Source: Chloromonas sp. AAM2 (Eukaryota > Chlorophyta > Chlorophyceae > Chlamydomonadales > Chlamydomonadaceae). Taken from it: a stretch of 11,916 bases of DNA. Where the stretch lies: NCBI GenBank assembly GCA_004335635.1, contig QAXH01004531.1, positions 1,651 to 13,566 on the forward strand, read 5' to 3'. Below are positions 1-11,916 of this stretch, piece after piece. The translations under genes and the position numbers were made by a program. Position 1 is the stretch's first letter, and every line of letters starts with the position of its first letter. Below the pieces are notes generated by a model. It ran no database searches. It was not told the DNA's origin and saw only the letters and a list, made by a program, of their open reading frames with translations.

Positions 1-20
1 ACCAACTGAGCTACGGGCCC
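1..20 (-). tRNA. 5' end of a tRNA gene, partial
   Basis: Read on the - strand, bases 20 to 1 give GGGCCCG, TA, GCTC, AGTTGGT. This matches a tRNA acceptor 5' strand, U8-A9, the D stem and the start of the D loop. The anticodon lies outside the window, so the amino acid cannot be named. A TAATTTG at 53-47 on the - strand loosely resembles the -7 element of Bacteroidota promoters and could serve this gene, but that is weak. tRNA genes are common neighbours of integrated elements; here only the 5' end faces the window, whereas most tyrosine-recombinase sites lie in the 3' half. Confidence 0.85.
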
Positions 21-210: not shown

Positions 211-670
211 GGGATTATTCTCAGCTCAATTCAAAATTTATTCCCACTATTTTTATATAAATCAATTATCGTCTCAGCTAACATAACCTGAATTTCAAGA
301 GCTCACTTTATAGCTCTCCAAAGATTTATAGAATTGATGGTTGAAAATTTCTTAAGTGCTTATTCAATTCTTTTAAAAACTACAGAAGCCCGATTTATAA
401 GATTATCGCTAACCCTTTAGTATTTCTGATACATTTAATCCAGAGCCCATGAGATTTATAGCAAGCACTTATTAACCTATTTATTAGTCCTCTCAACTCT
501 CTTATCAATAAATAACGAATAATTTTAAACTCCATATACCATTTATGTTAATGAAATTCTTTTATGGTTTAATATCTATTGCTTATTAAAATAAATCTTT
601 TAGCAAGTAGGTTTTTACTCATTATGCTTGACTTGTATTAATATCGAGGTGTAACTTATAGTTATTTAAC

Positions 671-705
671 TATAATTGTTGTACTTACAAAAGTAAGTAA
701 ATATA
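671..705 (+). promoter_or_regulatory. Possible promoter and operator before the first gene
   Basis: A TATAAT lies at 671-676, without a clear -35 box at the expected distance. It is followed by a perfect seven-base inverted repeat, TACTTAC (682-688) and GTAAGTA (693-699), with a four-base AAAA centre. The second copy of AAGTAAGTAAATATA is at 691-705. The dyad sits about where transcription would start and 20 bases before the ATG at 719, as expected of a repressor operator. Assignment is inferred from position and symmetry. Confidence 0.4.
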
Positions 706-718
706 AATATGCACCCTC

Positions 719-979
719 ATGTCTAATGAAATAACAGATACTCACTACAAATTGAAGATAGCGCTATTGGTTAGAAGAGTTGGCATCAAGGAATTCGCCA
801 ATAATTTAAGGAAACCGGATGGTAAAATCGGAATCTCACACCAAGCACTAATAAGAGTAGCACAAGACAAAGAAAAAACTCCTTGGATTAAAAATGTTAT
901 TAATAAAACAATTAAAGAAACGAGTAAAGATTACCCTAATATTTGGGAGGAATTATTTAGTAAACATGACGCAAACTAA
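719..979 (+). CDS. Small basic protein, possible DNA-binding regulator
   Basis: An 86-residue soluble protein of no family I recognise with certainty. Residues about 20-50 (VGIKEFANNLRK..., then ISHQALIRVAQ) have the spacing of a helix-turn-helix: a helix, a Gly-containing turn and a second helix that would read DNA. The rest is charged and helical. ATG at 719 is the only good start and has no Shine-Dalgarno sequence. It is first in an early cluster, lies directly after a dyad that looks like an operator, and overlaps the excisionase-like gene by 14 bases. A role as early regulator or repressor fits the position but is inference. A small nucleic-acid-binding protein of another type cannot be excluded. 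Confidence 0.6.
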   Translation: MSNEITDTHYKLKIALLVRRVGIKEFANNLRKPDGKIGISHQALIRVAQDKEKTPWIKNVINKTIKETSKDYPNIWEELFSKHDAN

Positions 980-1220
980 ACAACAGCAGCTATTTAAAGT
1001 ATTAAATGGTATTGAAAGCCAACTTGAATATGTAAGAGCATTAATAAATGAAGCTGTTTCATCTGAAGAATGGATTACTACCAAAGAGTTTTCAATTAGA
1101 TCTAATCTTAATAACAAGACTGTAAGCAATTATGTAGGAAAGGGTGTTATTAAGAAGGCAAAAAAAATTAAAGGAAGACATCTTATTCATATTTCGGAGC
1201 TGGAAAATTGGGGCATATAA
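966..1220 (+). CDS. Excisionase / MerR-type HTH DNA-binding protein
   Basis: An 84-residue protein. Residues 1-33 form a helical Gln- and Leu-containing lead, perhaps a short coiled coil. Residues 36-82 match the helix-turn-helix of excisionase-like proteins: WITTKEF starts helix 1, LNNKTVSNYV is the recognition helix, KGRHLIHISELENW is the typical wing followed by a closing helix. Such proteins direct recombination or repress early promoters in prophages and integrative elements. The ATG at 966 was preferred over an earlier in-frame start at 894 because the earlier one lies deep inside the preceding gene and would add residues unrelated to the fold. The 14-base overlap with the first gene suggests translational coupling. 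No integrase is visible in the window. Confidence 0.7.
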   Translation: MTQTKQQQLFKVLNGIESQLEYVRALINEAVSSEEWITTKEFSIRSNLNNKTVSNYVGKGVIKKAKKIKGRHLIHISELENWGI

Positions 1221-1417
1221 AAGAACTCTCTTTACCAACTCATTTAAACTCAACTAATAGATTGAACATCTTAGGTCTAGCAGCTTTAATTGTTTCCAAT
1301 CAAGAATTGAAAAATGTCTCAATAATTTTAAAAAGGAACGAAAATAGAGATTTAAAAGAAGTATTAAAGATTCTTTCGGAAACTCAACAAAAACTAAACC
1401 GAGTGATCTTGCAATAG
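1208..1417 (+). CDS. Small protein of unknown function, TTG start
   Basis: An open frame of 69 residues that starts at TTG 1208, overlapping the excisionase-like gene by 13 bases. The product is charged and Leu/Ile-rich; residues 15-30 (NRLNILGLAALIVSN) are mildly hydrophobic and the C-terminal half is an amphipathic helix (LKEVLKILSETQQKLNRV). No family is recognised. There is no ATG in the frame, so the start is uncertain. Its position in a chain of overlapping genes argues for being real; the lack of a standard start and its small size argue against. Confidence 0.4.
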   Translation: MGHIKELSLPTHLNSTNRLNILGLAALIVSNQELKNVSIILKRNENRDLKEVLKILSETQQKLNRVILQ

Positions 1418-1428
1418 ATCAAAGCTGA

Positions 1429-2178
1429 TTGACATTTCACGAAGTAATTCCCCATGTGAGAGAAGCTTGCAGAAATGATATTATTGAAATCATTTCTGAA
1501 CGCATTCCACTGAAAAAATCTGGCAGTTACTATAAAGCGTGTTGCCCATTTCACTCTGAAAAGACTCCGTCTTTTTTTGTGCATGAGGTCAAAGGCACTT
1601 ATAAATGCTATGGTTGTGAAGCATGGGGCGATGCGATTAGTTTTGTGGGGTTTTTTGACGGGCTAACCTTCAATGAAGTCATTTATTTATTTGCCGAACG
1701 GTATCACCTAACCATTTCAAATAACAGTAGGAAGAAAACCCAACAGGCTATAAAAAATGAAGATGATATAATTTCTGGTTACTCCTCTGTAAAGACTGAA
1801 ATCTTAAAAACGAAGAAAGTTTACGTAGCTTTTAAACGAGGCAACGTGCCATTCACACCCGTACTTTTCATAGATGGTCATCTGAGCCTCGAAGCTGCTA
1901 TACTTTTAAGAAAAAGGACCCCAAAAGTAGTTTTCATACTACAACAAGATTCATGGAATGTTTTAAAGCATTCTATTGAGTTTTCATTATCCGCTGGTCT
2001 GGATGTTTTTATAATTCCAGATTACTCCAACAAACTCCAGGAAATTGACTGGATGGAATATTGCCGGTTTTTTCATCTCCCGAAGATTGAAAAAAAAGAC
2101 CTTATAAAGCTAATCGCCAGCATACCTGACAACATTACCCGTTCCTGTTATATCACCTGGTTTACAAACAATTTTTAA
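1429..2178 (+). CDS. DnaG-like protein: CHC2 zinc finger and degenerate TOPRIM
   Basis: A 249-residue primase-like protein. The N-terminus closely follows the DnaG zinc-binding domain: C39-P-F-H42 with EKTPSF, then C60-Y-G-C63, and the following GDAISF helix. This domain recognises single-stranded template during primer synthesis. Beyond residue about 128 the strand and helix pattern resembles a TOPRIM domain, but key residues are altered: the usual VEGY is I148-D-G-H151 and the usual DGD is Q172-Q-D174. Primer synthesis by this protein alone is therefore doubtful. Full DnaG is about 600 residues; the RNA polymerase core and helicase-binding domain are missing. It precedes the helicase-like gene by 12 bases and probably works with it, perhaps as a template-binding subunit. 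The start is taken as TTG 1429; GTG 1456 is a possible alternative. Confidence 0.75.
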   Translation: MTFHEVIPHVREACRNDIIEIISERIPLKKSGSYYKACCPFHSEKTPSFFVHEVKGTYKCYGCEAWGDAISFVGFFDGLTFNEVIYLFAERYHLTISNNSRKKTQQAIKNEDDIISGYSSVKTEILKTKKVYVAFKRGNVPFTPVLFIDGHLSLEAAILLRKRTPKVVFILQQDSWNVLKHSIEFSLSAGLDVFIIPDYSNKLQEIDWMEYCRFFHLPKIEKKDLIKLIASIPDNITRSCYITWFTNNF

Positions 2179-2190
2179 TAATTAGCCTAA

Positions 2191-4506
2191 ATGAAGAAAC
2201 CCTTATTCAACGCTGAGTTTTGGCGTTGGTATTTGAAGAAAGAATTCAATGAGTTTAAGTACCTAAACGACTCGACAATATTACTTGAAAAAGTTCAAAA
2301 CGTTTTTCGTGAGGACTCTACTAATTTAAATCTAACAATCAATTTAGACCTGGAGGTGTGTAAGGATAGCGAGAACAATGAATTCAGTATCATTGAATTT
2401 ATTGCCATTAAAACACGTACTGAACGCGCGTACGTATTAACTGAAGTCGAGGTAGAATATGAGCGATGGCTTGCCTTTAAGATCCAGGAAAACGCAGCTA
2501 AGGAATATGAACGAGACTTTGATAACTATCAATGGATTCGAAAGCGAGGGGGAGAAAAAGTACCTGTCACCGACTTTGATCTTATACTTGAATCCATCAT
2601 TGAAAAATGGAACCCTGAAAAGAAAGAATGGGAACGAACCTATGTAGGGCAGTTACGGTACCTGCGGGGAGGCATCCCCATGTACAAACCGTTTAATTTT
2701 GAACCTGTCCAAACCCATAGCGTTGAGGAATTTTCCAAAAGCGTATGGAATAAAGATGTGCTTCAGGTGAAAAATATGAAAAACGAAGACATGCGTAGCT
2801 TTTGGATGCATGTGAACATTGAATTTAAACCTCGTATCGTTCGGGAATTTGACCACTTTGGGATCATTTCTTTTGAAAAAAAGCGGTACTTACTAGCCGG
2901 TAATGTATTGGTTAGTTTCCCACGGAAAGCAACGGAGCATATTAAGCTTATTGCCCGGTTAGATGGAGCCTTTCCCATTGGCGATAATAAGTTTCTAAAA
3001 CCCCCGGACGATGCTATACATCTACCCCACTATGAATTAGGCCTTGCCAATTCGGAGGGTTTTTTCAAAAATGCAGAGGAGAGTCTGTATGACGACCAGG
3101 AATTCTATAAAAAATTAATGCAGGTCGAACACCATTTCTGCGGCATGGTGGGAGGCCATAGCGAATTCAGGAATTGGGGTAAAATTATCGTAGCCTACGT
3201 GTTTTCTTTTGTATTTTTCGATGAAATCTATGCCCTTCACAAACATATCATCTTCCTTTACCTATACGGAGAAGGAAACGTCGGTAAAGGGGAAATGGCC
3301 AAACTTATTCAGGATTTTTTTGGCATAAATCACCTGGACAGTTTGAATACACCACCTGCTCGTTCGGTCGACGAGGCTCTGGAGCAAAAATCCCATATCC
3401 CTCAGTGGATTGACGAGCATGTTCCCCAAGTGCCTGGCAAAAAAGCGAAAATTGAAGATCAGATCTGGAACTCCTGGTTTGAACTCAAGCCACGACCTAC
3501 AAACATTAAGAAAGGAAACAAATGGGGCAAGGAACATAAAGTGGTTCGTACCATGCCGCTGTTTTGCAGCAATTTCTTGCCGGCTACGGATCACCTGCTT
3601 AGCCGATCTCTGATACTTCACTACAGCAAAAAGACACGGGGCCCCGAAGAACATGTAAAAGAATTACTAAATGAACGGGTGACGCTCCAACGTCTCATGC
3701 TTTCTTTTCTAAAAAATTACCACTTAATCAACCGAAAGCACTTCATTTCAGACATGGAACGCCTCCGGCTTAAACTCAAAGAGGCCGTTAAAACCGAACT
3801 GGGTGATAAAATGAAAGACGTGGTACTCCAAGACCGGCAAATCAATCAGTTTGCTTCCCTGGTTACGGTTTCCTATTGGCTCAATCCCGATTACCGCGCC
3901 CTCATATCTGGTTCCCTTGAGCTGTTGGAAGAAATCAAAGACAAAGCTAAATACGATGAGTATTACCGCAACTTCACCAAAGAGCGCACCGAGGAACGAC
4001 TGGAATCGATTACCGGGAACGACCTTTTTCTTTTTGCCCGGGATGAAGTGGTTAAGACGGCCATCCGGTACTCTTCCCAGGATCCGCTTACCGAATTCAT
4101 TGAAACCATAGGGACTCTCATCCAGTCAATGAAGGTCAATGCGAATCATTTTAACTGGACTAAGGACGGCACGCTCAAAATTTGGGCCAAAGCGATCTGG
4201 GACATCTACGAATACGAAAAAAGAGGAACCGACGGTATGGTCCGCCGAGACATTGTGGATGAGAAACTCCGAGATTTAAGCGATCTGACTCCGGAAGGCG
4301 AACTTAAGGTGGTTAACTGGACTATAATAGACAGTTACAGTAACCTAAAGACCGATACCATCCGTCAGCGGGGTTACTACATCCCACATGCGGTTGAAAA
4401 CGAGCTGTTTCGCAATGCCTTTAACTGGGACAAATTCAAGCCGGCCGGCAGCCAACTCTGGACGGGAAACACCCAGCCGGCCAGAGAAGAAATAGTTTCA
4501 GCATGA
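2191..4506 (+). CDS. Primase-helicase-type SF3/D5-like NTPase
   Basis: A 771-residue protein resembling the large replication NTPases of phages and integrative elements (DUF5906 / D5-like, helicase superfamily 3). The C-terminal NTPase is clear: Walker A G360-EGNVGK366-GE, Walker B W406-IDEH410, a motif C / sensor region ending in CSN461 with FLP following, and an Arg-containing LLSR shortly after, as for an arginine finger. Such enzymes form rings that unwind the element's own origin. The Walker A loop has Gly where Ser or Thr normally follows the invariant Lys, which is unusual. The N-terminal 330 residues show no recognisable motif and may carry the origin-binding or primase part. ATG 2191 has no Shine-Dalgarno. 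The repeat array right after its stop is a plausible target. Confidence 0.75.
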   Translation: MKKPLFNAEFWRWYLKKEFNEFKYLNDSTILLEKVQNVFREDSTNLNLTINLDLEVCKDSENNEFSIIEFIAIKTRTERAYVLTEVEVEYERWLAFKIQENAAKEYERDFDNYQWIRKRGGEKVPVTDFDLILESIIEKWNPEKKEWERTYVGQLRYLRGGIPMYKPFNFEPVQTHSVEEFSKSVWNKDVLQVKNMKNEDMRSFWMHVNIEFKPRIVREFDHFGIISFEKKRYLLAGNVLVSFPRKATEHIKLIARLDGAFPIGDNKFLKPPDDAIHLPHYELGLANSEGFFKNAEESLYDDQEFYKKLMQVEHHFCGMVGGHSEFRNWGKIIVAYVFSFVFFDEIYALHKHIIFLYLYGEGNVGKGEMAKLIQDFFGINHLDSLNTPPARSVDEALEQKSHIPQWIDEHVPQVPGKKAKIEDQIWNSWFELKPRPTNIKKGNKWGKEHKVVRTMPLFCSNFLPATDHLLSRSLILHYSKKTRGPEEHVKELLNERVTLQRLMLSFLKNYHLINRKHFISDMERLRLKLKEAVKTELGDKMKDVVLQDRQINQFASLVTVSYWLNPDYRALISGSLELLEEIKDKAKYDEYYRNFTKERTEERLESITGNDLFLFARDEVVKTAIRYSSQDPLTEFIETIGTLIQSMKVNANHFNWTKDGTLKIWAKAIWDIYEYEKRGTDGMVRRDIVDEKLRDLSDLTPEGELKVVNWTIIDSYSNLKTDTIRQRGYYIPHAVENELFRNAFNWDKFKPAGSQLWTGNTQPAREEIVSA

Positions 4507-4555
4507 GCTATTTTTTTAACCTTACTATTAAAAAGCCCGATAAAGAAAAAGATCC

Positions 4556-4838
4556 ATGTTTCAATGTTTCAAATTACTACAAACAGACGTTATGATACCT
4601 GTAGTACACTTTTTTATGAAACTTTCCCTGAAACTTTTATGAAACACCATGAAACATTCCCTCTTTTTTCTGAAACAGCAATGTTTCATTCCCGTTTCAC
4701 AGGCAATTCTGGTAAATCATTGAAAATACATACCTCAAAAATCATTGTAATCCACCATGAAACAGGCCTGTTTCAGAAAATGTTTCATTCAAATCAGCCT
4801 CTGTTAACCCCTCAAGGTAATTTTTTGGTATTTGAAAC
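4556..4838. repeat. Iteron-like array of TGAAAC/GTTTCA, putative origin
   Basis: Thirteen copies of one hexamer lie in 283 bases. GTTTCA is at 4558, 4566, 4683, 4694, 4770 and 4782; TGAAAC is at 4617, 4629, 4640, 4650, 4671, 4758 and 4833 (first base given). The first two are a tandem octamer, ATGTTTCA twice (4556-4571). Within runs the copies are 8-12 bases apart and one gap is 21, so most face the same side of the helix. Orientation switches from TGAAAC to GTTTCA around 4677. By position after a replicative NTPase gene it looks like an iteron origin; it could equally be a large operator for the HTH gene at 4906. Confidence 0.75.
4758..4775. promoter_or_regulatory. Perfect 18-base palindrome inside the iteron array
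   Basis: TGAAACAGGCCTGTTTCA is an exact palindrome: two hexamer repeats facing each other across AGGCCT. A further GTTTCA follows 12 bases on at 4782. It is the most symmetric site in the array and a likely binding site for a dimer. Confidence 0.7.
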
Positions 4839-4905
4839 ATTTGTTTGGAATAAAATGAGTTTTACCGGAAAATAAACTCCACAACCATCACTAACGAGAA
4901 ATCCC

Positions 4906-5148
4906 ATGCACACTGAAAAATCCATGCAAGAAATTATAGACCGAGAAGTAATGACCATCAAAGAAGCCCAGGTATATGTGGAGGAAAAAACAGGGATGAA
5001 AAGCAGCCTTTTCTATGATTGCGTGCGTCCTTTGCTATCTCCCCGACCCATGGCCATGAATCAACGCACCCGAAAACCTGCCCATTTTGTTGTGGCCAAA
5101 GAACAAGTTGAACAGGTTATTTTTAGCATGAAAAAACAAATTGAGTAA
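4906..5148 (+). CDS. Small HTH-like protein, candidate iteron-binding regulator
   Basis: An 80-residue soluble protein. Residues about 14-75 follow the plan of excisionase / MerR-like winged helix-turn-helix domains: VMTIKEAQVYVEEKTG as helix 1, SSLFYDCVRPLL as a second helix, RKPAHFVVAKEQVEQVIFSMKK as wing and last helix. The match is weaker than for the protein at 966. It has no Shine-Dalgarno and stands alone between the repeat array and the long operon. Because the TGAAAC array lies directly upstream and covers where its promoter should be, this protein may bind the array, either to control its own gene or to act at the origin. That link is inference. Confidence 0.6.
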   Translation: MHTEKSMQEIIDREVMTIKEAQVYVEEKTGMKSSLFYDCVRPLLSPRPMAMNQRTRKPAHFVVAKEQVEQVIFSMKKQIE

Positions 5149-5183
5149 AAAATTAAGCCTTCCATTTCACTCAATAAATTTTT
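5140..5183 (+). terminator. Weak candidate terminator after the HTH-like gene
   Basis: ATTGAGT (5140-5146, overlapping the stop codon) and ACTCAAT (5169-5175) can pair into a seven-base stem with a 22-base loop, followed by AAATTTTTT. The stem is AT-rich and the loop long, so termination here is only possible, not shown. Confidence 0.25.
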
Positions 5184-5203
5184 TCCAATTTTTTGTGCTA
5201 CCG

Positions 5204-5215
5204 GTAAATATTTAC
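5204..5215. promoter_or_regulatory. Palindrome in the leader of the long operon
   Basis: GTAAATATTTAC is a perfect 12-base palindrome about 90 bases before the first gene of the long operon. TTTTTTG lies just upstream (5189-5195). The 154-base gap 5149-5302 is the only space where a promoter for the whole downstream operon could sit, so this may be an operator or part of a promoter. No standard -35/-10 pair or full Bacteroidota TAnnTTTG element is evident. Confidence 0.3.
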
Positions 5216-5302
5216 GTGCTCACATCCCCTGCTATTCTTCCAATGGCCATTTAACCTGTTGCGTTTCCTGCCTATTCTGTGTTCGAACCAACCAGAACAC
5301 AG

Positions 5303-6025
5303 ATGGCAGATCATTCACAACATACGGGCGACACGCTTGCCGAGGATAAAATTGGCGGAGCTATAAAACCCTCCCCCGGGCGTCCACCGGCTGAGTTTTA
5401 TTCGAGTATGAATATCCCGGCCAAGTTCTCCATGGCGGGCAATTATTACCATGAGCGTTGTCTCCAGCTCGAAGGTCAACTAACGGACGCACATCGCAAA
5501 ATCCAGCAGATTACCGATGAGCTTTTTCAAGCCAGAAAAGATCTATCGCAGGATAAAACCGAATTGCTGTTGGCCCATCAAAACGAAATTGCCCGATTGA
5601 AGGAAGAATTTCGAGATAAACTCGACGGCCTGAAAGAGGCCAATCAATCAAAAATCAGTGATCTTGAAAAACAAATCGAACAACTCGACCGGGAACAGTT
5701 TAAAAAAGACCTGGAATACAAGGCTTCCCAACAGTCTCCCAGTAACCAGCTTGCTGAGCATTTTATAAAGAAAACCCCCGACCTTTTTGACACTATTGGG
5801 AGTGTAATAGGCATTATTGCCGGGCAGCGGCATGGACTAGGGCCGGGACCAATGACGGCAAACACAGGGTTCCATTCGCCCCACTCCAATGCAAACAATT
5901 CTGAGCCCTCGGAAGACCTTTCCGAGGAACAAGATTCCACACGGCAAGCCTCACCAACACCCATTGACACCCCTCCTGAAAAGGAGCAAATCGAGCACCT
6001 GGAAACCCCAAAAAACAATCAATGA
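5303..6025 (+). CDS. Coiled-coil protein, first gene of the long operon
   Basis: A 240-residue protein with three parts. The N-terminal 45 residues are Pro/Gly-rich and probably flexible. Residues about 50-145 form a long heptad-like helix rich in Leu, Glu, Lys and Gln, a likely coiled coil. Then comes a short hydrophobic stretch (LFDTIGSVIGIIAG), too short for a confident membrane segment, and an acidic Ser/Pro/Glu-rich tail of about 60 residues. The family is not recognised. A scaffolding or structural role would suit a long coiled coil at the head of a structural operon, but this is a guess. ATG 5303 was chosen; an in-frame GTG at 5279 would add eight residues. Its end overlaps the next start by four bases (ATGA). 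Confidence 0.7.
   Translation: MADHSQHTGDTLAEDKIGGAIKPSPGRPPAEFYSSMNIPAKFSMAGNYYHERCLQLEGQLTDAHRKIQQITDELFQARKDLSQDKTELLLAHQNEIARLKEEFRDKLDGLKEANQSKISDLEKQIEQLDREQFKKDLEYKASQQSPSNQLAEHFIKKTPDLFDTIGSVIGIIAGQRHGLGPGPMTANTGFHSPHSNANNSEPSEDLSEEQDSTRQASPTPIDTPPEKEQIEHLETPKNNQ
5907..5927 (+). repeat. Eight-base perfect hairpin inside the coiled-coil gene
   Basis: CCTCGGAA (5907-5914) and TTCCGAGG (5920-5927) pair perfectly around a five-base loop. It lies in the sequence encoding the acidic tail. No T run follows, so it is not a standard terminator. It could stabilise or mark an mRNA processing point, or be chance. Confidence 0.35.
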
Positions 6026-6456
6026 GCACCCGCCAGCCATATATAAATGTAATTCAGTCTGCGTTAGACTTCATGAACATAGATTCCCCTTCCTCTTCCC
6101 GATATACCAAATATGTCAGGGCTGTTCAGCATCAAATTCAACTCATTGAAAAGATGGAGAATAGATCGTTAACGGTTGCCGACTGGGTGCAGATGGCTAT
6201 AGAGTTAGGTAGACGAGCACTGGAAAGAGACATTGGCGCTAAACGAATTGCAGAAAGCATATATCCCCTTGTGGATGGATCCGGGCAATTTTCGAGCTAC
6301 GCCAAACTCTCTTCCGGTGTTGCTACCCACTTGTTATTGATTTGGACAGGAACCATCCGGTCCATTAGACCCGAAGAACGAGTATTGCTGGTTGATGTGA
6401 TCGCTGAATTGCAGAAGCTATACCTGAAGCGAACCAATCCAAGGTCCCACTCATGA
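6022..6456 (+). CDS. Helical protein of unknown function
   Basis: A 144-residue protein of no recognised family. It appears all-helical: a helix in the first 20 residues, a basic Tyr/Arg/Lys stretch (SSRYTKYVRAVQHQIQLIEKM), a helix beginning LTVADWVQMAIELGRRALER, and two hydrophobic C-terminal helices (SGVATHLLLIWTG and RVLLVDVIAELQKLYL). None is long enough to be a clear membrane segment, and there is no signal peptide. It overlaps its neighbours by four bases on both sides (ATGA at 6022 and 6453), showing tight translational coupling in the operon. Confidence 0.65.
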   Translation: MSTRQPYINVIQSALDFMNIDSPSSSRYTKYVRAVQHQIQLIEKMENRSLTVADWVQMAIELGRRALERDIGAKRIAESIYPLVDGSGQFSSYAKLSSGVATHLLLIWTGTIRSIRPEERVLLVDVIAELQKLYLKRTNPRSHS

Positions 6457-6674
6457 GCAGCGTAGAGACAAAAACCATATCTCAAGTCCGTAATCAGCTT
6501 TTTTCTTTGGCAAGCAGCGATACGGTCACCGCCTTTACCCGCAATGGAAAATGTGTAGGCATTGTAATCACCTGCGGTGCATCAACGCCGGAAATGGCCG
6601 CACTTCGCCACAAGCGACTGCTTGAAAACCCGGTGCACACCATTACCAAACTTACCAACGACGTGCTCGGCTAA
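6453..6674 (+). CDS. Phd/YefM-like antitoxin-type protein without a visible toxin
   Basis: A 73-residue protein. Residues about 8-40 follow the N-terminal DNA-binding fold of Phd/YefM antitoxins: TISQVRNQLFSLASS for the first strand and helix, then TVTAFTRNGKCVGIVIT, matching the typical pattern of a valine-rich strand, an Arg-Asn-Gly turn and a second strand. The C-terminal part (PEMAALRHKRLLENPVHTI) would be the flexible toxin-binding tail in a true antitoxin. No RelE, Doc or other toxin-like gene adjoins it; the next gene is transglutaminase-like and shares one base with its stop. It may act as a small regulator or structural adaptor. Family assignment is from pattern only and moderately secure. 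Confidence 0.5.
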   Translation: MSSVETKTISQVRNQLFSLASSDTVTAFTRNGKCVGIVITCGASTPEMAALRHKRLLENPVHTITKLTNDVLG

Positions 6675-7687
6675 TGCAAAGTGGCTACATCAAGATATTA
6701 CCAGATACCCAGCAGTACCATGCCAGAGCACGGGCTGTGGATGCTTCTTTGGGAGCATCCACAGTACCTCTTTCTACCCGACGGTTGGCATATCCCGGTG
6801 TGGAGGGTGTGTTATCCGAAGCCTCCCGGCTGGTTACCAAATACACCGGCGATGAACGCATCCGGTCGCTGGCTCTCAAAATCACAAGCACGATCCGGCG
6901 ACACCGGCTTACCGGACAAGCCGACTTGCGAAACATTGACGCGGTTGCCTCGGCCATCTATACCTGGATGCTGCGAAACGTGAATTACGTGCGCGACCCG
7001 TGGGATGTCGAGCGACTTCAGTCACCCTTTGTCACCATTACCCAACGGGCCGGAGACTGCGACGATCATGCCATTTTAGGTGCTGCCTTGCTGCAAAGCC
7101 TGGGTATTCAAACCGGTTTTCGCATTGTCTCACGAACCGGACGTCATTTTGATCACATTTACGCCGTCTATCACTCCCCAACGGGCTGGAAGTCTTTTGA
7201 CACCACTGTGTTGAAACACCCAGGGTACATTTTTGACGAACGCTTGATAAAGAAATCCAGACATGTGACCAACACCATGCCCGATGGATTGGGATTTGAC
7301 CCCATCACGCTACTCACCACCGCTACCACCATGGCCAGTACCGGGATGACGCTCAAAAATACCTTGTCCAACATATTTGGAGCCAAAGATAAGGATGAAC
7401 GTCAATTGCGTGGGGCTCTGCGAGATTATTTGATGCAGCGGGGCGTGCATTCTGAGGTGATCAGCCTTTCCCAGAAGGACAATGCTACCCTACAGCGCTA
7501 CGCGCAGATTATAGATGAACTTGGCGGGCCCGCGGTACAGCAACTGAACCGCTACGGGCAACTTTCTCCGGCTTGGGTTTCTCAACAGCAAACAGCAAAA
7601 AAAACCAAAAAAATGGGGCTATACGCCGGTATTGCCATTGGAGCACTGGCTCTGATTGGTGGCGGGTATATGCTTCTAAATACATAG
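6674..7687 (+). CDS. Transglutaminase-like protein with C-terminal membrane anchor
   Basis: A 337-residue protein. The transglutaminase / papain-like core is well marked: AGDC129-DDHAILGAALLQSLGI places the catalytic Cys at the head of a helix, followed by FDH161-IYAVY on a strand and GWKSFD176-T, giving the usual Cys-His-Asp triad. Bacterial relatives are mostly peptidases or amidases, often acting on proteins or cell-wall peptides. Residues about 316-335 (YAGIAIGALALIGGGYMLL) form one membrane segment, preceded by KKTKK and with almost nothing after it. There is no signal peptide. It heads a run of seven products with C-terminal membrane segments, so it probably sits in the same membrane. 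A role in wall opening or protein processing is inference. Confidence 0.8.
   Translation: MQSGYIKILPDTQQYHARARAVDASLGASTVPLSTRRLAYPGVEGVLSEASRLVTKYTGDERIRSLALKITSTIRRHRLTGQADLRNIDAVASAIYTWMLRNVNYVRDPWDVERLQSPFVTITQRAGDCDDHAILGAALLQSLGIQTGFRIVSRTGRHFDHIYAVYHSPTGWKSFDTTVLKHPGYIFDERLIKKSRHVTNTMPDGLGFDPITLLTTATTMASTGMTLKNTLSNIFGAKDKDERQLRGALRDYLMQRGVHSEVISLSQKDNATLQRYAQIIDELGGPAVQQLNRYGQLSPAWVSQQQTAKKTKKMGLYAGIAIGALALIGGGYMLLNT
6735..6764 (+). promoter_or_regulatory. Eleven-base perfect hairpin at the start of the transglutaminase-like gene
   Basis: CTGTGGATGCT (6735-6745) pairs exactly with AGCATCCACAG (6754-6764) around the eight-base loop TCTTTGGG. It begins about 60 bases into the coding sequence. 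No T run follows directly. Such a stable stem could slow ribosomes, set an mRNA end or bind a regulator; it could also be a protein-binding DNA dyad. Confidence 0.5.
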
Positions 7688-7690
7688 ACC

Positions 7691-8113
7691 ATGAGTAAAA
7701 GTGGATTTATCATTCCCTTAGAGGATACTGTTATCGGTGAGGAAGACACGGTGATTGCCGTTGCCAACAGTCCGGGACTCGGCAATTGGGAAGAAACCGA
7801 CCCCTGCCGGTACGCCAATCAAAGCTGTAAAGGCAAAATGTTTGGGAAGCTGAAAAGCTGTCGCCGCCAGCGCGATAAAAGCAAGGCGTTGTGCAAAGCA
7901 CATGAAACTTCTCTTCAAAAAAAAGCGCAATGGGAAGGTCAGCGTGAGGACATGATGCAGGCGCTTCAGACCAACCTTACCACTACTGCTTCCCAACAAA
8001 AAACGGCCAATTCGGCTATGAAGTCGGGTATTGCCGTGGGTGGTGTCGCCCTGACCGGTGCCATAGCGCTGACATTGGTAATGCTGAAACGAAAAAAGAA
8101 ATCTTCCACTTAA
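7691..8113 (+). CDS. Small membrane protein with a periodic four-Cys region
   Basis: A 140-residue protein of no recognised family. Residues 1-35 are acidic and Val/Ile-rich. Residues 39-71 are basic with four Cys at 39, 46, 57 and 68, the last three exactly eleven apart, followed by His71; this may be a disulphide-bonded or metal-binding helix hairpin. A polar helical stretch rich in Gln and Thr follows. Residues about 112-132 (SGIAVGGVALTGAIALTLVML) make one membrane segment, closed by KRKKK. By the positive-inside rule the tail would face the cytoplasm or virion interior. It starts three bases after the preceding stop. Confidence 0.7.
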   Translation: MSKSGFIIPLEDTVIGEEDTVIAVANSPGLGNWEETDPCRYANQSCKGKMFGKLKSCRRQRDKSKALCKAHETSLQKKAQWEGQREDMMQALQTNLTTTASQQKTANSAMKSGIAVGGVALTGAIALTLVMLKRKKKSST

Positions 8114-8125
8114 TCAGTCCTATCT

Positions 8126-8449
8126 ATGACCAGACAACCAAGCGGTTACACCAGTTTTGATTTTCTAAACCAACAAGCAGCTACAGTTTCCCCACCCACC
8201 CCCACCAGACTAGGTTCGACCTTAAGCTCCATCAATAATTTACTAAAGACCGCTACCGATACGGTAGTGACTATAGACGGAGTGGTCAACAAAGGTGGCA
8301 CCAAGTCTGGAAGCGGACAACCTGCCACCCTGTATCCTGGGCAAGGCGTGCCAGCTGCAAGCGGCTCGGGTGAGCTGATAAAGTATGCGGGCGTAGCAGG
8401 AATCGCCATAGGCGGTGGACTCATCCTGCTTAAAATACTGAAGAAATAA
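8126..8449 (+). CDS. Small Gly/Ser/Thr-rich membrane protein
   Basis: A 107-residue protein of no recognised family. The first 85 residues are rich in Ser, Thr, Gly and Pro (for example SPPTPTR and GGTKSGSGQPA) and look largely flexible, with one likely helix around 30-48. Residues about 87-102 (AGVAGIAIGGGLILLK) form a short Gly-rich membrane segment followed by ILKK. The segment resembles those ending the transglutaminase-like and peptidoglycan-binding proteins. There is no signal peptide and no Shine-Dalgarno. Confidence 0.65.
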   Translation: MTRQPSGYTSFDFLNQQAATVSPPTPTRLGSTLSSINNLLKTATDTVVTIDGVVNKGGTKSGSGQPATLYPGQGVPAASGSGELIKYAGVAGIAIGGGLILLKILKK

Positions 8450-8451
8450 AT

Positions 8452-8721
8452 ATGCAAACCGAACGAATTTCGACGTATGTAGATGGCCGTATACCCGGTG
8501 TTCAATCCCCTGTTTTGCTACCGGAGATAGAAGACACATCACATGAACAACCCGACATGCAGATGTTCGATGTGGGCGAAAGCGAACAGCCTACGGCCAA
8601 TAAACTATGCAAGCGACTTCAGGAGCAGCCCATTTCCATCTCGCAGTGGATACGGGATAACCAGAACAACTTACTAATCGCGGGTGGCCTGTATGTAGGG
8701 TACCGCTTGCTACGGAGGTAA
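8452..8721 (+). CDS. Small acidic protein with C-terminal membrane segment
   Basis: An 89-residue protein of no recognised family. It starts two bases after the previous stop. The N-terminal half is acidic and Pro/Gln-rich; a helix with ANKLCKRLQEQP and ISISQWIRDN leads into a short membrane segment at about 73-86 (NLLIAGGLYVGYRLL) ended by RR. The final codons contain the GGAGG that probably serves the next gene. Confidence 0.65.
   Translation: MQTERISTYVDGRIPGVQSPVLLPEIEDTSHEQPDMQMFDVGESEQPTANKLCKRLQEQPISISQWIRDNQNNLLIAGGLYVGYRLLRR
8714..8718 (+). promoter_or_regulatory. Shine-Dalgarno sequence, unusual for this window
   Basis: GGAGG four bases before ATG 8723 is the only strong Shine-Dalgarno sequence I see before a gene here. 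It may raise expression of the 227-residue product relative to its neighbours, as expected if that product is needed in higher copy. Confidence 0.5.
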
Positions 8722-8722
8722 G

Positions 8723-9406
8723 ATGAACACGCAATCAGGATATATCGACACCGGGCTCGGGCAGCTCACCCTGTCCAGCAATATCATAAGCTCCGAGTCT
8801 GTGGAACTTCGCATTATCGGGCGTAATCCCGCCTCGGGCAACCCACCCAGCGGGGTTCCGTTTTCCCTCGATCTTGAAATTGAAACCTTCCGTAACTGGG
8901 CAAAAGTGCTTTTCGTGCCGTTTATGGCCAGCTGGGGGCAATGCCCCGATGCCCTCGTAGTAGTTCGCTCGGAGCAAACCGGCTCAGTCTTAGGCTTCCA
9001 GCGATTCCGTACGGCGATGATGGATAGCTGCCGCGCGCAAGGACGAATTGTTTTTGAAAGATCGTTTACTCCAAATTCGGGTCATAAAGTAATTTTTGAG
9101 GTGTATCCTGATGATGTTGACCTAAGCAACCTATCTCACTCGGAGCTAATCGAGAAATCTGCTCCCATATCCCTTGATCTTGACCAGAAGACCGGCGAGC
9201 AGTCGGGAGTGTATTCTTCGCCTACCGAGTCCTGGTACGAGATTCCTGAATTTGGATCGGTAAATCCTCTTGGTGAGGTCAATACGCTACTTAAGCGAGC
9301 AACTATTGTAGTGGGCGTGTTTACCGGACTCTACCTACTCGCGCCCATGCTCCCCGGACTACGGGCAGGGATGAAAGCTCTGGCCGCTAAATCAACTATC
9401 AAATGA
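8723..9406 (+). CDS. Beta-rich protein with C-terminal membrane segment, possible structural protein
   Basis: A 227-residue protein of no recognised family. Residues 1-165 alternate short hydrophobic strands with turns (for example VELRIIGRN, FSLDLEIETF, ALVVVRSEQ, GRIVFERSF, HKVIFEVYP), which suggests a beta sandwich or jelly-roll-like domain. An acidic linker follows, then a membrane segment at about 193-211 (ATIVVGVFTGLYLLAPML) and a basic amphipathic tail (GLRAGMKALAAKSTIK). It is the only gene here with a good Shine-Dalgarno, hinting at high expression. A minor capsid, spike or penton-like role is conceivable; at this length it is short for a double jelly-roll major capsid protein. It overlaps the next gene by four bases. 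Confidence 0.65.
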   Translation: MNTQSGYIDTGLGQLTLSSNIISSESVELRIIGRNPASGNPPSGVPFSLDLEIETFRNWAKVLFVPFMASWGQCPDALVVVRSEQTGSVLGFQRFRTAMMDSCRAQGRIVFERSFTPNSGHKVIFEVYPDDVDLSNLSHSELIEKSAPISLDLDQKTGEQSGVYSSPTESWYEIPEFGSVNPLGEVNTLLKRATIVVGVFTGLYLLAPMLPGLRAGMKALAAKSTIK

Positions 9407-9798
9407 GATCTACCTATTGCGTTCCTACCGGCACCGGCCTGCAGGGCATGGACGAGTACCTGCACCGTACTTCCCAAAACGCTTTCAAGCTGTTTGCGGG
9501 CAAACTCCAGGAGGTTACCAGTGGCCGCCGCGGTCAACTTGCTACCATGGGGCTCAACCTCGCCAACCTGACTACCAGTAAGGAGGGCATAAAATCGGTA
9601 TATGAGCAAAATGCTCCGGTCATAGATGCGTATTTCGAGCATGTGGATCTGGTGGCCCTTTCTAATAAACTAACTACCGATGAGGCCTTATCAGCCTCGG
9701 CCAAAAGCACAGTATTGAAATACAGTTCCATACTTTTGGCCGGTTTCGCGGCAGGTGCCCTTGCACATCGAATGTATAACTCAACTTCAAAGAAATGA
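9403..9798 (+). CDS. Helical protein with C-terminal membrane segment
   Basis: A 131-residue protein of no recognised family. Residues 1-100 are mostly helical and polar, with a Gly-rich start (CVPTGTGLQGMDEYL). Residues about 107-122 (YSSILLAGFAAGALAH) form a single membrane segment followed by RMYNSTSKK. Both ends overlap neighbouring genes by four bases, so it is translated with them. There is no signal peptide. Confidence 0.65.
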   Translation: MRSTYCVPTGTGLQGMDEYLHRTSQNAFKLFAGKLQEVTSGRRGQLATMGLNLANLTTSKEGIKSVYEQNAPVIDAYFEHVDLVALSNKLTTDEALSASAKSTVLKYSSILLAGFAAGALAHRMYNSTSKK

Positions 9799-10118
9799 TG
9801 ACACTCCGAAAAGGCGATTCAGGACACGCGGTTTTACAGTTACAGGCAGGGCTGCAAAAAATGGGCATTTCGTTACCCAAATACGGTATCGACGGAAAAT
9901 TCGGGCGTGAAACCCAATCCGCGGTTATGGAAGCCCAACGAAGGTATGCAATGCCCGTCACCGGTGAGGCCGGACCACCTTTGCTGGCTAAACTGGGGGT
10001 ACCCCGTACATCACTGAGCACAAAAAAAGGCAGCACATCCATACTGAAAAAAACGGTACTGACCGGTATCGCCATCGGGGTTTTGCTTGTCATTGCCAAG
10101 AAAATGAGGACCCGCTGA
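9795..10118 (+). CDS. Peptidoglycan-binding domain protein with membrane anchor
   Basis: A 107-residue protein. Residues 3-66 are a textbook PG_binding_1 domain: LRKGDSGHAVLQLQAGLQ, then GIDGKFGRETQSAVMEAQRRY and VTGEAGPPLLAKLG, keeping the typical Gly-Asp, Leu-Gln, Asp-Gly-x-Phe-Gly and Thr-Gly positions. This domain holds proteins on cell-wall peptidoglycan. No catalytic domain is attached. After a Lys/Ser linker, residues about 87-101 (TVLTGIAIGVLLVIA) form a membrane segment flanked by KK on both sides. Together with the transglutaminase-like protein it shows that this module works at the cell wall, perhaps for docking or entry. A second in-frame ATG is at 9798. Confidence 0.85.
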   Translation: MMTLRKGDSGHAVLQLQAGLQKMGISLPKYGIDGKFGRETQSAVMEAQRRYAMPVTGEAGPPLLAKLGVPRTSLSTKKGSTSILKKTVLTGIAIGVLLVIAKKMRTR

Positions 10119-10119
10119 T

Positions 10120-11375
10120 ATGGACAACCAGCATACCATGAGCGCTAAAGAGTTGGCGAAAATAAACATCAAAGGCATCAAGATTGCCCAGCCGTACGGC
10201 ACGCTACTGGGGGAACCGGAGAAAAATGCGGTCATCTTTATCTGGGGGAAAAGGGGGCCGGTAAATCCACCTTCAGTTTGGGGCTGGCTAATGCTTTTGC
10301 CCACCATGGCAGGGTGGAATACATCCCCGCCGAAGAGCACTTCGGGAAAACCCTGGTCGATCGGGTGAAGCGCCTGAATGCCACTCACAGCAACCTGAAT
10401 TTCACCAAATGGAAGTCGCTAACCTCGCTGAAAGAAACCCTGCTAAAACACAGATCGGCCTTTTGCGTATTGGATTCCATCTCTGTCATCGATGCCAAAG
10501 ACGCCTCCACGGTGGAGCTGGCCCAGTGGTGCCGCGAGCAGGGCATTGGGTTTATCATGGTGGCTCACGCAACCAAGGACGGCAAGTACAAAGGCAATAC
10601 TAGTATCGCCCATGAGTGCGACATCGAAATCAAAGTCACGAAAGAGGGATTGGCCGAGACCGAAAAAAACCGATATCAAATCCTAAACGCCATTGAAGTT
10701 CCTTTTACGGCCCCCCGAAACAATGAATATACCCAGCAAAAAACAGCTCCCGTGAAACGAGAAAACCCTGTTGACCTGCCATTTAGCATTTCGCTCAAGC
10801 AAATCGACACCCTCCACAAGCTTCGCTCGTGGAAACGGGTGAATTCCCTGCTCGGCTCCAAGATGCCGTGCTACGCCAAACAGCATTCCGGGGAGTCTGA
10901 GCGGGCCACACTCAGCATTCGCTATATCCCCGACTACCACAACAAACGCTATATCGTGGAGCTGCTGATCGACGGGGAGCTGAAAACCCAGGTTTGCACC
11001 GAAGGAGCCAACGGCGGTTTTGTCGCTTCCTGGGCCCAGCTGGTGAAAAAGCACGGGGACCTTGTGGTGCAGATTCTCGCCCAGGATCACGCGAAGAAAG
11101 TGCTGGGCGCGCGGGAATACCGGAGGCAGGAAAAGCTTCAGGGAAGCAAGTCCGATTGCCCGCCAGCACCAAAATCCAACACCAAGAAAAAGCCTAAGCG
11201 CAAGCCTACCCCGCCCACCAAGAAGAAAACGGCCAGGAAAAAACCGGCGATACAGAAGTCCAAACCGTCATCTAAGTCTGCCAAGCAGGCCACTCCAAAG
11301 CCCGAAGTGGATCTGGAAGCCGCCCGAAAAAGCCAGGCCCAACTCGACGCCTTTTTAGAAAAAGTCCTTAGCTAA
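10120..11375 (+). pseudogene. RadA/RecA-like ATPase broken by a frameshift in the Walker A G run
   Basis: Bases 10120-10248 read in one frame up to VIFIWG; the P-loop GAGKST and all later motifs lie in the frame one base behind, which runs to the stop at 11375. TGG followed by GGG at 10244-10248 has five G where six would keep the frame, so one base is missing or a -1 shift occurs. Joined length would be about 418 residues. The second part has Walker B CVLDS (about 10467), a HATKDG loop (from about 10567) and KNRYQ, matching RadA motifs including its KNRFG. RadA's zinc finger and Lon-like domain are absent. A middle domain of unknown type and a Lys/Pro/Ala-rich tail of about 70 residues follow. 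The role may be DNA recombination, replication or packaging. A sequencing or assembly indel is as likely as a true lesion. Confidence 0.7.
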
Positions 11376-11378
11376 GCC

Positions 11379-11916
11379 ATGCCCGCAGTTAACACCAATA
11401 TCGACCAGATAACCCACCTTTCCACCAGCGACTTTGATCACTGGCTGGGCGACTGGGACGCCGACGGGATTGTCAATATTGATGATCCCAACCCGCTTAC
11501 CCCGGGGGATACCACCCCGGTGTCCGAGGCTGAACTGGCCCCACAGTTAAAAGCGGTTATTGAGGCGAAAAACAACTACATCCCGGCCCTTAAAAAGGTT
11601 ATGACCGGCCTTATCGGGATGCATTTGGCGCTGGTCGTAAAGGGTCGCATCAAGGAGGTGTATTCCACGCTCGGCAAACTCATCCGCAAGCGATTCCCGT
11701 TTACCGAAAAGATAGCTACCAAAGCCGGAGAAAAATATACGACCGGCCTGACCGATGTGGCAGGCTGTATGGCCATTGCCGAAACGCAGGCGCAGGTGGA
11801 CCAGATGGTAAAGCGTATCCTTTCCGGCGAACTGGGTGAAGTCTGGGAACACGAAGACAAGTATAAAAACCCAGCGAGTGGTTACCGCGCCCATCATTTT
11901 ATCCTTGTTGTAGACG
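11379..11916 (+). CDS. RelA/SpoT-like alarmone synthetase domain protein, partial
   Basis: The open frame from ATG 11379 continues past the window; 179 residues are visible. Residues 25-40 (DWDADGIVNIDDPNP) resemble a TSP3-type calcium-binding repeat. Residues 84-178 follow the RelA/SpoT nucleotidyltransferase core: VKGR90-IK92-EVYSTLGKLIRK, LTD126-VAG, then DKYKNPASGY169-RAHH173-FILVV, aligning with the family's Arg-x-Lys, Asp-x-x-Gly and Gly-Tyr-Arg-x-x-His motifs. Met131 stands where an Arg usually follows the Gly. Family members transfer pyrophosphate to GTP, GDP or other acceptors. The catalytic Glu region would lie beyond the edge. No hydrolase domain is seen. It begins three bases after the ATPase gene. 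Possible roles include a host-manipulating or defence enzyme; some relatives are toxic. Confidence 0.75.
   Translation, partial: MPAVNTNIDQITHLSTSDFDHWLGDWDADGIVNIDDPNPLTPGDTTPVSEAELAPQLKAVIEAKNNYIPALKKVMTGLIGMHLALVVKGRIKEVYSTLGKLIRKRFPFTEKIATKAGEKYTTGLTDVAGCMAIAETQAQVDQMVKRILSGELGEVWEHEDKYKNPASGYRAHHFILVVD

Follow-up and report, generated by a model that had tools for sequence, protein, structure and literature searches.

Introduction

The virus SSIP-1 is described, in passages of two reports, as having a tailless icosahedral virion with an internal membrane (PMC6356626, PMC6260650). Parts of the literature group it with the single jelly-roll viruses that have two capsid proteins (PMC5332951, PMC4958249, PMC6356626), and a section of another paper gives its protein gp40 as a predicted packaging ATPase (PMC4124505). 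Here we analyze a stretch of 11,916 nucleotides, which we call the window, from a contig (QAXH01004531.1) in the genome assembly of the green alga Chloromonas sp. AAM2 (GCA_004335635.1). We conclude that, very probably, the window covers the left-hand portion of an SSIP-1-lineage provirus in the genome of a Balneola/Gracilimonas-type bacterium, most likely integrated at a tRNA-Met gene, and seven consecutive genes in it code for minor membrane proteins of the virion that are held in the membrane by their C-termini. SSIP-1-like viruses are already known, and the novelty is a proviral branch of a very thinly sampled kind. A literature search found, among the publications listed, none linking SSIP-1 with Balneolota proviruses, and the founding paper (Aalto et al. 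2012) may mention relatives.

Results

A seven-gene cluster conserved in Balneolota

The contig has 13,566 bases, of which the window takes up 1651-13566. The assembly has 74 Mb in 2324 contigs and also contains a full-length bacterial 16S match. We infer that the contig is bacterial and lies inside a larger host or mixed assembly. The most similar loci come from Balneola, Gracilimonas and a Bacteroidetes metagenome-assembled genome (MAG), with at most 91% identity in the first gene of the cluster. A scan of a genome collection of 84,980 species with this gene gave 159 relatives, and we retained the 80 best. Among these 80, the whole cluster and its order are common to 15 loci (L006-L020) spread over 12 assemblies, from Balneola, Gracilimonas, Rhodohalobacter, Fodinibius, Aliifodinibius, the Bacteroidetes bacterium MAG (L012) and the assembly that contains L011; in six loci further down the list (L021-L026) the match is confined to the transglutaminase domain. 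Most of the 15 loci are in the phylum Balneolota, which includes Gracilimonas, Fodinibius and Rhodohalobacter and to which we take Balneola and Aliifodinibius also to belong; a synteny search in Bacteroidota and Balneolota genomes had been proposed in a first-pass annotation of the window. Three assemblies carry two provirus copies each (L006/L009, L014/L017 and L018/L020). L011 is a short contig in a Pleurocapsales cyanobacterium assembly; it carries a Balneolota-type module resembling the Rhodohalobacter copy and is probably a contaminant.

The cluster occupies positions 6674-10118 and consists of seven complete genes on the + strand, with the borders of the interval coinciding exactly with gene ends. 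The first-pass annotation had noted tight packing, and the distances from gene to gene are indeed 3, 12, 2, 1, -4 and -4 bases. We refer to the transglutaminase-like first gene (6674-7687) as TG, to the last gene (9795-10118) as PG-binding, and to the others by their start positions (7691, 8126, 8452, 8723 and 9403). Using as criterion for a membrane segment a 17-residue hydropathy window scoring at least 1.5, at most 20 residues from the C-terminus, we found that six of the seven products have exactly one hydrophobic segment and that it is C-terminal. The product of 8452 (8452-8721, + strand), a small protein ending ...NLLIAGGLYVGYRLLRR whose hydrophobic segment at the C-terminus is short and weak, falls below the cut-off, and a 19-residue window puts its best stretch at residues 6-24, away from the C-end. 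The annotation's claim that all seven products end in one membrane segment therefore holds for six and is doubtful for 8452; the motif GIAIG, in which it found several products alike, occurs in three of them (TG, 8126 and PG-binding).

Random shuffling of residues reached the observed hydropathy peak in 166 of 1000 trials for TG, 0 for 7691, 25 for 8126, 115 for 8723, 139 for 9403 and 10 for PG-binding. Taken alone, these shuffles are weak support; the unusual part is the position at the C-end combined with the run of genes. In 65 other loci (L021-L085) the feature was present in 11 of 779 mechanically picked open reading frames (ORFs) of 80-350 amino acids, with a longest run of three, and in 21 of the 1086 ORFs of at least 80 amino acids. 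Drawing genes independently, the estimate for at least six of seven is 5e-11, a figure that is merely illustrative because the cut-offs were picked after the window had been seen. To assess conservation we asked whether each of 15 orthologs per gene has a hydropathy peak of at least 1.3 within 25 residues of the C-end. All 15 do for 7691, 8126, 9403 and PG-binding, compared with 13 for TG, 9 for 8723 and 1 for 8452.

The two domains reported by the first-pass annotation were confirmed by Pfam: the transglutaminase-like core of TG (6674-7687; Transglut_core, 8.1e-8) and the peptidoglycan-binding domain of the last protein (9795-10118, + strand; PG_binding_1, 3.5e-13; present in 15/15 loci). TG appears to be a cysteine enzyme: Cys129, His161 and Asp176, to which we assign a catalytic role on the model of the transglutaminase family, are invariant in all 17 sequences compared (the window, 15 relatives, and SSIP-1 gp34). 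Gene 7691 (7691-8113, + strand) codes for a protein with four cysteines (Cys39, 46, 57 and 68) that are invariant in 16/16 sequences, and 8126 (8126-8449, + strand) for a small Gly-rich protein; these two genes and 8452 are present at all 15 loci.

Eleven gene families are collinear with SSIP-1

When we searched 50,697 phage records with the ATPase encoded immediately to the right of the cluster, one organism was matched, SSIP-1, and the same was true for p203, a protein family encoded further to the right. We then compared family profiles with 33 of the 57 SSIP-1 proteins; the profile E-values given here apply to a search of 33 sequences. Eleven families match SSIP-1 in identical order, and six of these are in the window, one of them (the giant gene at its right edge) in part. 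From left to right they are 6022 (6022-6456, + strand; gp33, E = 1.9e-12, hhalign probability 95.5), TG (gp34, E = 1.3e-36), 8723 (8723-9406, + strand; gp35, E = 3.3e-10, TBLASTN E = 4e-5), 9403 (9403-9798, + strand; gp36, E = 1.5e-7), the ATPase (gp40, E = 1e-34), the giant protein (gp43, E = 9.7e-12), p167 (gp44, E = 6.3e-12), p203 (gp45, E = 5.3e-19; gp46, E = 7.1e-10), p258 (gp47, E = 1.1e-12), p137 (gp48, E = 6e-4) and the transglycosylase LT184 (gp54, E = 4.3e-39). Among the 33 proteins there was no accepted counterpart for p192, p473, p128, p77, p191, p95 or p88, and a match between 8126 and gp35 (E = 0.01) was set aside. The SSIP-1 record labels gp1, gp34, gp37, gp40, gp41, gp43-gp48, gp53 and gp57 as structural, and by these labels seven of the 11 families (TG, the ATPase, the giant protein, p167, p203, p258 and p137) match a structural protein. 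It is the label in the record that would place gp34-type proteins in the particle.

This ordered homology supports the first of the two alternatives in the first-pass annotation, that the cluster is a structural module of a tailless membrane virus related to, and distinct from, the PRD1, PM2 and FLiP types. The annotation did not name the nearest relative, SSIP-1.

Capsid candidates in the right arm

We were able to read the right arm beyond the giant gene in 14 of the 15 loci (all except L011). All 14 contain the giant gene and the families p167, p203, p258, p137, p192, p473, LT184, p77, p191, p95 and p88; p128 was matched in seven at E = 1e-3. LT184 is a transglycosylase that has a hydrophobic segment at its C-terminus (Pfam SLT, 1.4e-13 in relative L094). 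Homologs of gp45-gp47 are thus encoded in every right arm, and presumably in the element of the window too. The annotation had suggested looking for capsid proteins beyond the right edge, and in the 14 relatives this yielded candidates: structure models predict p203 to be a single jelly roll, and p258 to resemble double jelly-roll capsid proteins, with its best alignments to side-by-side double barrels. Profiles of p203 and p258 found nothing above chance level among PDB sequences, and p203 had no match among plasmids. The idea that p203 and p258 are duplicates, suggested by a p203-gp47 match (E = 0.012), was dropped after profile comparison gave a probability of 0.1-0.2. Eight pairs of p203 relatives have equal longest-contig sizes (for example 20716, 9138 and 8094), which hints at two p203-type genes per genome, like gp45 and gp46. 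This group of loci makes the question of the SSIP-1 capsid fold testable.

Pattern-based searches of a viral contig collection, in which the ATPase, TG, p203 and p258 served as queries, gave no locus of the same gene order and no confirmed relative of p203 or p258, so viral collections may overlook this group; the TG pattern gave one distant match (31%, L004).

The ATPase and the giant gene

The ATPase gene (10120-11375, + strand) lies in two overlapping frames, 10120-10368 and 10278-11375. Its ortholog in L007, which has an open frame, matches the NCBIfam RadA model TIGR00416 (1.9e-13) with 50 bits, far under the model cut-off of 403, a RadA sequence in PDB over residues 10-200 (1.8e-7), and Pox_A32 at 1.3e-4, just under its cut-off. 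In SSIP-1 itself, gp40 matches Pfam AAA_25 at 5.3e-11.

The giant gene starts at 11379 (+ strand) and runs off the contig at 11916. As called in 14 relatives it codes for 2346-2421 amino acids. The best BLAST stretch between the full-length family and gp43 is at the far C-terminus (residues 2312-2421), beyond the window, and so the part inside the window is itself unmatched to gp43. The L094 giant protein (12768-19997, minus strand) has a RelA_SpoT domain (Pfam 7.9e-11, residues 89-206) followed by methyltransferase-type, SNF2 and Helicase_C parts, and its PHROG matches are to a DNA methyltransferase and DarB-like antirestriction proteins. The fragment in the window scores 8e-4 for RelA_SpoT, below the cut-off.

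The left arm and the probable integration site

The left end is a tRNA-Met gene in the Balneola-type copies, and probably also in the window. The first 16 bases of the window (1-16, minus strand), probably the 5' part of this gene, are identical at 16/16 positions to the left-border tRNA-Met of L007. The match is weak alone (E = 0.008, and ARAGORN calls no tRNA in the window) and is backed by L006-L009 and L012, where the tRNA-Met sequence has the same position. In a tRNA scan of the flanks of 14 loci, four (L007, L008, L009 and L012) had tRNA-Met at their left border and the Rhodohalobacter locus had it on the right side; the left border of L006 has 42 bases of tRNA-Met. Integrase genes lie beside the Rhodohalobacter tRNA (Pfam 6e-18) and beside the left end of L009 (5e-30). 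Neither 15-base words nor, close to the borders in five loci, 9-base words revealed a convincing exact att repeat shared by the two ends, and the right attachment site was not located. In one relative the provirus core, with tRNA-Met and the last conserved gene as its limits, is about 25.6 kb.

The genes near the left end are variable. Three occur at five of the 15 loci (L006-L009 and L012): a small early-region gene (719-979, + strand; found by TBLASTN, no Pfam match), a gene for a short DnaG-like protein of primase type with a CHC2 zinc finger (1429-2178, + strand; Pfam Zn_ribbon_DnaG, 2.6e-29), and a gene for a 771-residue probable replication protein (2191-4506, + strand), which is 86-89% identical at these loci and has a P-loop-like motif by eye. 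The 771-residue protein had no match of weight in PHROG, NCBIfam, PDB or phage records, and in Pfam just a sub-cut-off epimerase match. The primase and replication protein genes are found in these five loci only, and the corresponding region has different genes in the four others examined (L010, L014, L016 and L019). Closer to the cluster are 5279 (5279-6025, + strand), a conserved protein with weak Pfam matches and orthologs at 15/15 loci, and a small conserved gene that immediately precedes TG (6453-6674, + strand; 9/15 loci).

Defense genes were seen left of the module in two relatives, occupying the place where the Balneola copies have the primase and replication protein. L016 has Dsr1 over its full length (1459-5115; PADLOC E = 0), with a similar-looking ORF in L019 (1209-4865), and L010 has a type III restriction-modification system and an LmuB-like protein (305-6419). 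PADLOC scores labeled 'E1-E2' were also seen on an L014 protein.

Discussion

The reading of the window as part of an SSIP-1-lineage provirus is supported directly by homology, gene order, the conserved catalytic triad and the membrane tails. The presence of each protein in the virion, its topology, and the order of events would be as follows, if we take topology, capsid attachment, packaging and wall opening by analogy with PRD1-like viruses. The tail proteins would be inserted tail first into the inner membrane of the host, with their N-terminal domains in the cytoplasm. Capsid proteins encoded beyond the window would assemble over a patch of this membrane and enclose the N-terminal domains in the space beneath the shell, where they would link capsid and membrane. 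The RadA-like ATPase could serve DNA packaging, and the giant methyltransferase/helicase-type protein might be carried in the particle and protect incoming DNA. At entry, the cell wall may be opened by TG, acting as a cysteine enzyme, together with the PG-binding product and the downstream transglycosylase; some of the seven cluster proteins most likely act on peptidoglycan.

Several observations weigh against this reading. There is no capsid gene in the window, because the contig ends inside the giant gene, and no virion, membrane or capsid was observed. Among the tails, 8452 is barely hydrophobic, and six of the 15 orthologs of 8723 have their strongest peak elsewhere in the protein. By the positive-inside rule, the Lys/Arg clusters behind several of the tails are hard to reconcile with an N-terminal domain that lies in the cytoplasm. 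For 7691, 8126, 8452 and PG-binding, four of the seven cluster genes, there is no accepted SSIP-1 counterpart among the 33 proteins compared, a number that is also small as a basis for E-values, and we did not count further matches at E = 0.007-0.03, mostly out of order (5279-gp29, TG-gp53, 6022-gp44, giant-gp29, p203-gp47 and p77-gp37). The ATPase is closer to RadA than to a known packaging ATPase, and its frame is broken in the window near the nucleotide-binding motif, whereas it is open in five aligned relatives (L006-L009 and L012); because of this interruption the window copy may be defective or misread. Lastly, eight of the 14 loci have no tRNA in the scanned flanks, and one Aliifodinibius locus (L014) has tRNA-Arg in its right flank.

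The broken ATPase frame is compatible with a domesticated or decayed provirus that serves its host, for example by releasing DNA-carrying particles or as part of a defense island, and in some relatives defense genes do adjoin the module. We consider this unlikely, since the giant gene has stayed open over about 2350-2420 codons in 14/14 right arms, where the capsid candidates are also full-length ORFs, and since replication modules and neighboring genes vary between loci as expected of mobile viruses. The same defense genes of L016 and L010, together with the tRNA borders and integrase genes, are compatible with a non-viral integrative element whose cell-wall-spanning or secretion device shares ancestry with SSIP-1 in some genes. 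However, the shared part is an ordered morphogenesis block that includes proteins labeled structural in SSIP-1 as well as jelly-roll proteins, and Pfam scans of 16 window and nine L094 proteins found no relaxase or type IV secretion family (a TraS score of 0.09 is at chance level), so we regard such an element as improbable. It would be more surprising still if these were nothing more than small membrane proteins of the kind that a tailed phage has, for example in its lysis region, an explanation to which we give very little credence. The PG-binding domain does match endolysin PHROGs, one of them classified under head and packaging (phrog_1224, 4.8e-11), and the transglycosylase matches PHROGs under tail and head proteins (8.5e-8 and 1.7e-6) via its enzyme domain. 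But no terminase, portal or HK97-type capsid family, as expected for Caudoviricetes, was found in 29 proteins scanned against PHROG (17 from the window and 12 from L094, with window ORF 894-1220 and L094 p88 left out), and the remaining scores of tail type, to tape measure families at E = 0.01-0.05, are probably due to chance. The first-pass annotation had named a tailed-phage or conjugation gene set, or a lack of any capsid-like fold, as findings that would count against a membrane virus; the scanned proteins include neither gene set, and capsid-like folds are predicted.

Comparison with known viruses

The SSIP-1-lineage provirus that we propose shares with SSIP-1 the order of the virion block (homologs of gp33-gp36, gp40, gp43-gp48 and gp54) and the many small, C-terminally anchored proteins. 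It differs in several respects. SSIP-1 is a 43.8-kb circular isolate with a host in Rhodothermota (Salisaeta), compared with the smaller proviral core measured in one relative; it has no match to the primase and 771-residue replication protein of the window; and it has both gp45 and gp46, where the proviruses have one recognized p203 gene. The 15 proviral loci turn SSIP-1 from an orphan into a lineage that can be compared, in which the conserved virion core genes, and the tRNA-Met location of some copies, are now visible.

Like the particles that we propose for the proviruses, virions of double jelly-roll viruses contain single-pass membrane proteins and wall-active enzymes. The p258 model resembles the capsid proteins of the double jelly-roll viruses PRD1, PM2, STIV and FLiP, but p258 would have just 258 residues for both barrels, neither p203 nor p258 profiles match these viruses in PDB sequences, and the proviral ATPase is RadA-like in sequence. 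With P23-77, SH1 and HHIV-2 (Singelaviria) the proviruses have in common that p203 looks, in its model, like a single jelly roll. In contrast, p258 aligned best to double barrels, and proteins of P23-77 and HHIV-2 were absent among the matches listed for it, which says little against a resemblance to them. We tentatively suggest, as a possibility that we hold with less than even confidence, that SSIP-1 and the proviruses are a family of their own among membrane-containing viruses, with a shell built from a double jelly-roll protein of very small size (p258/gp47) together with single jelly rolls (p203/gp45, gp46), and with a RadA-derived packaging or entry motor instead of one of A32/FtsK-HerA type. 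If this is true, SSIP-1 leaves the single jelly-roll group assigned to it in print, and the double jelly-roll lineage gains a member with a different motor.

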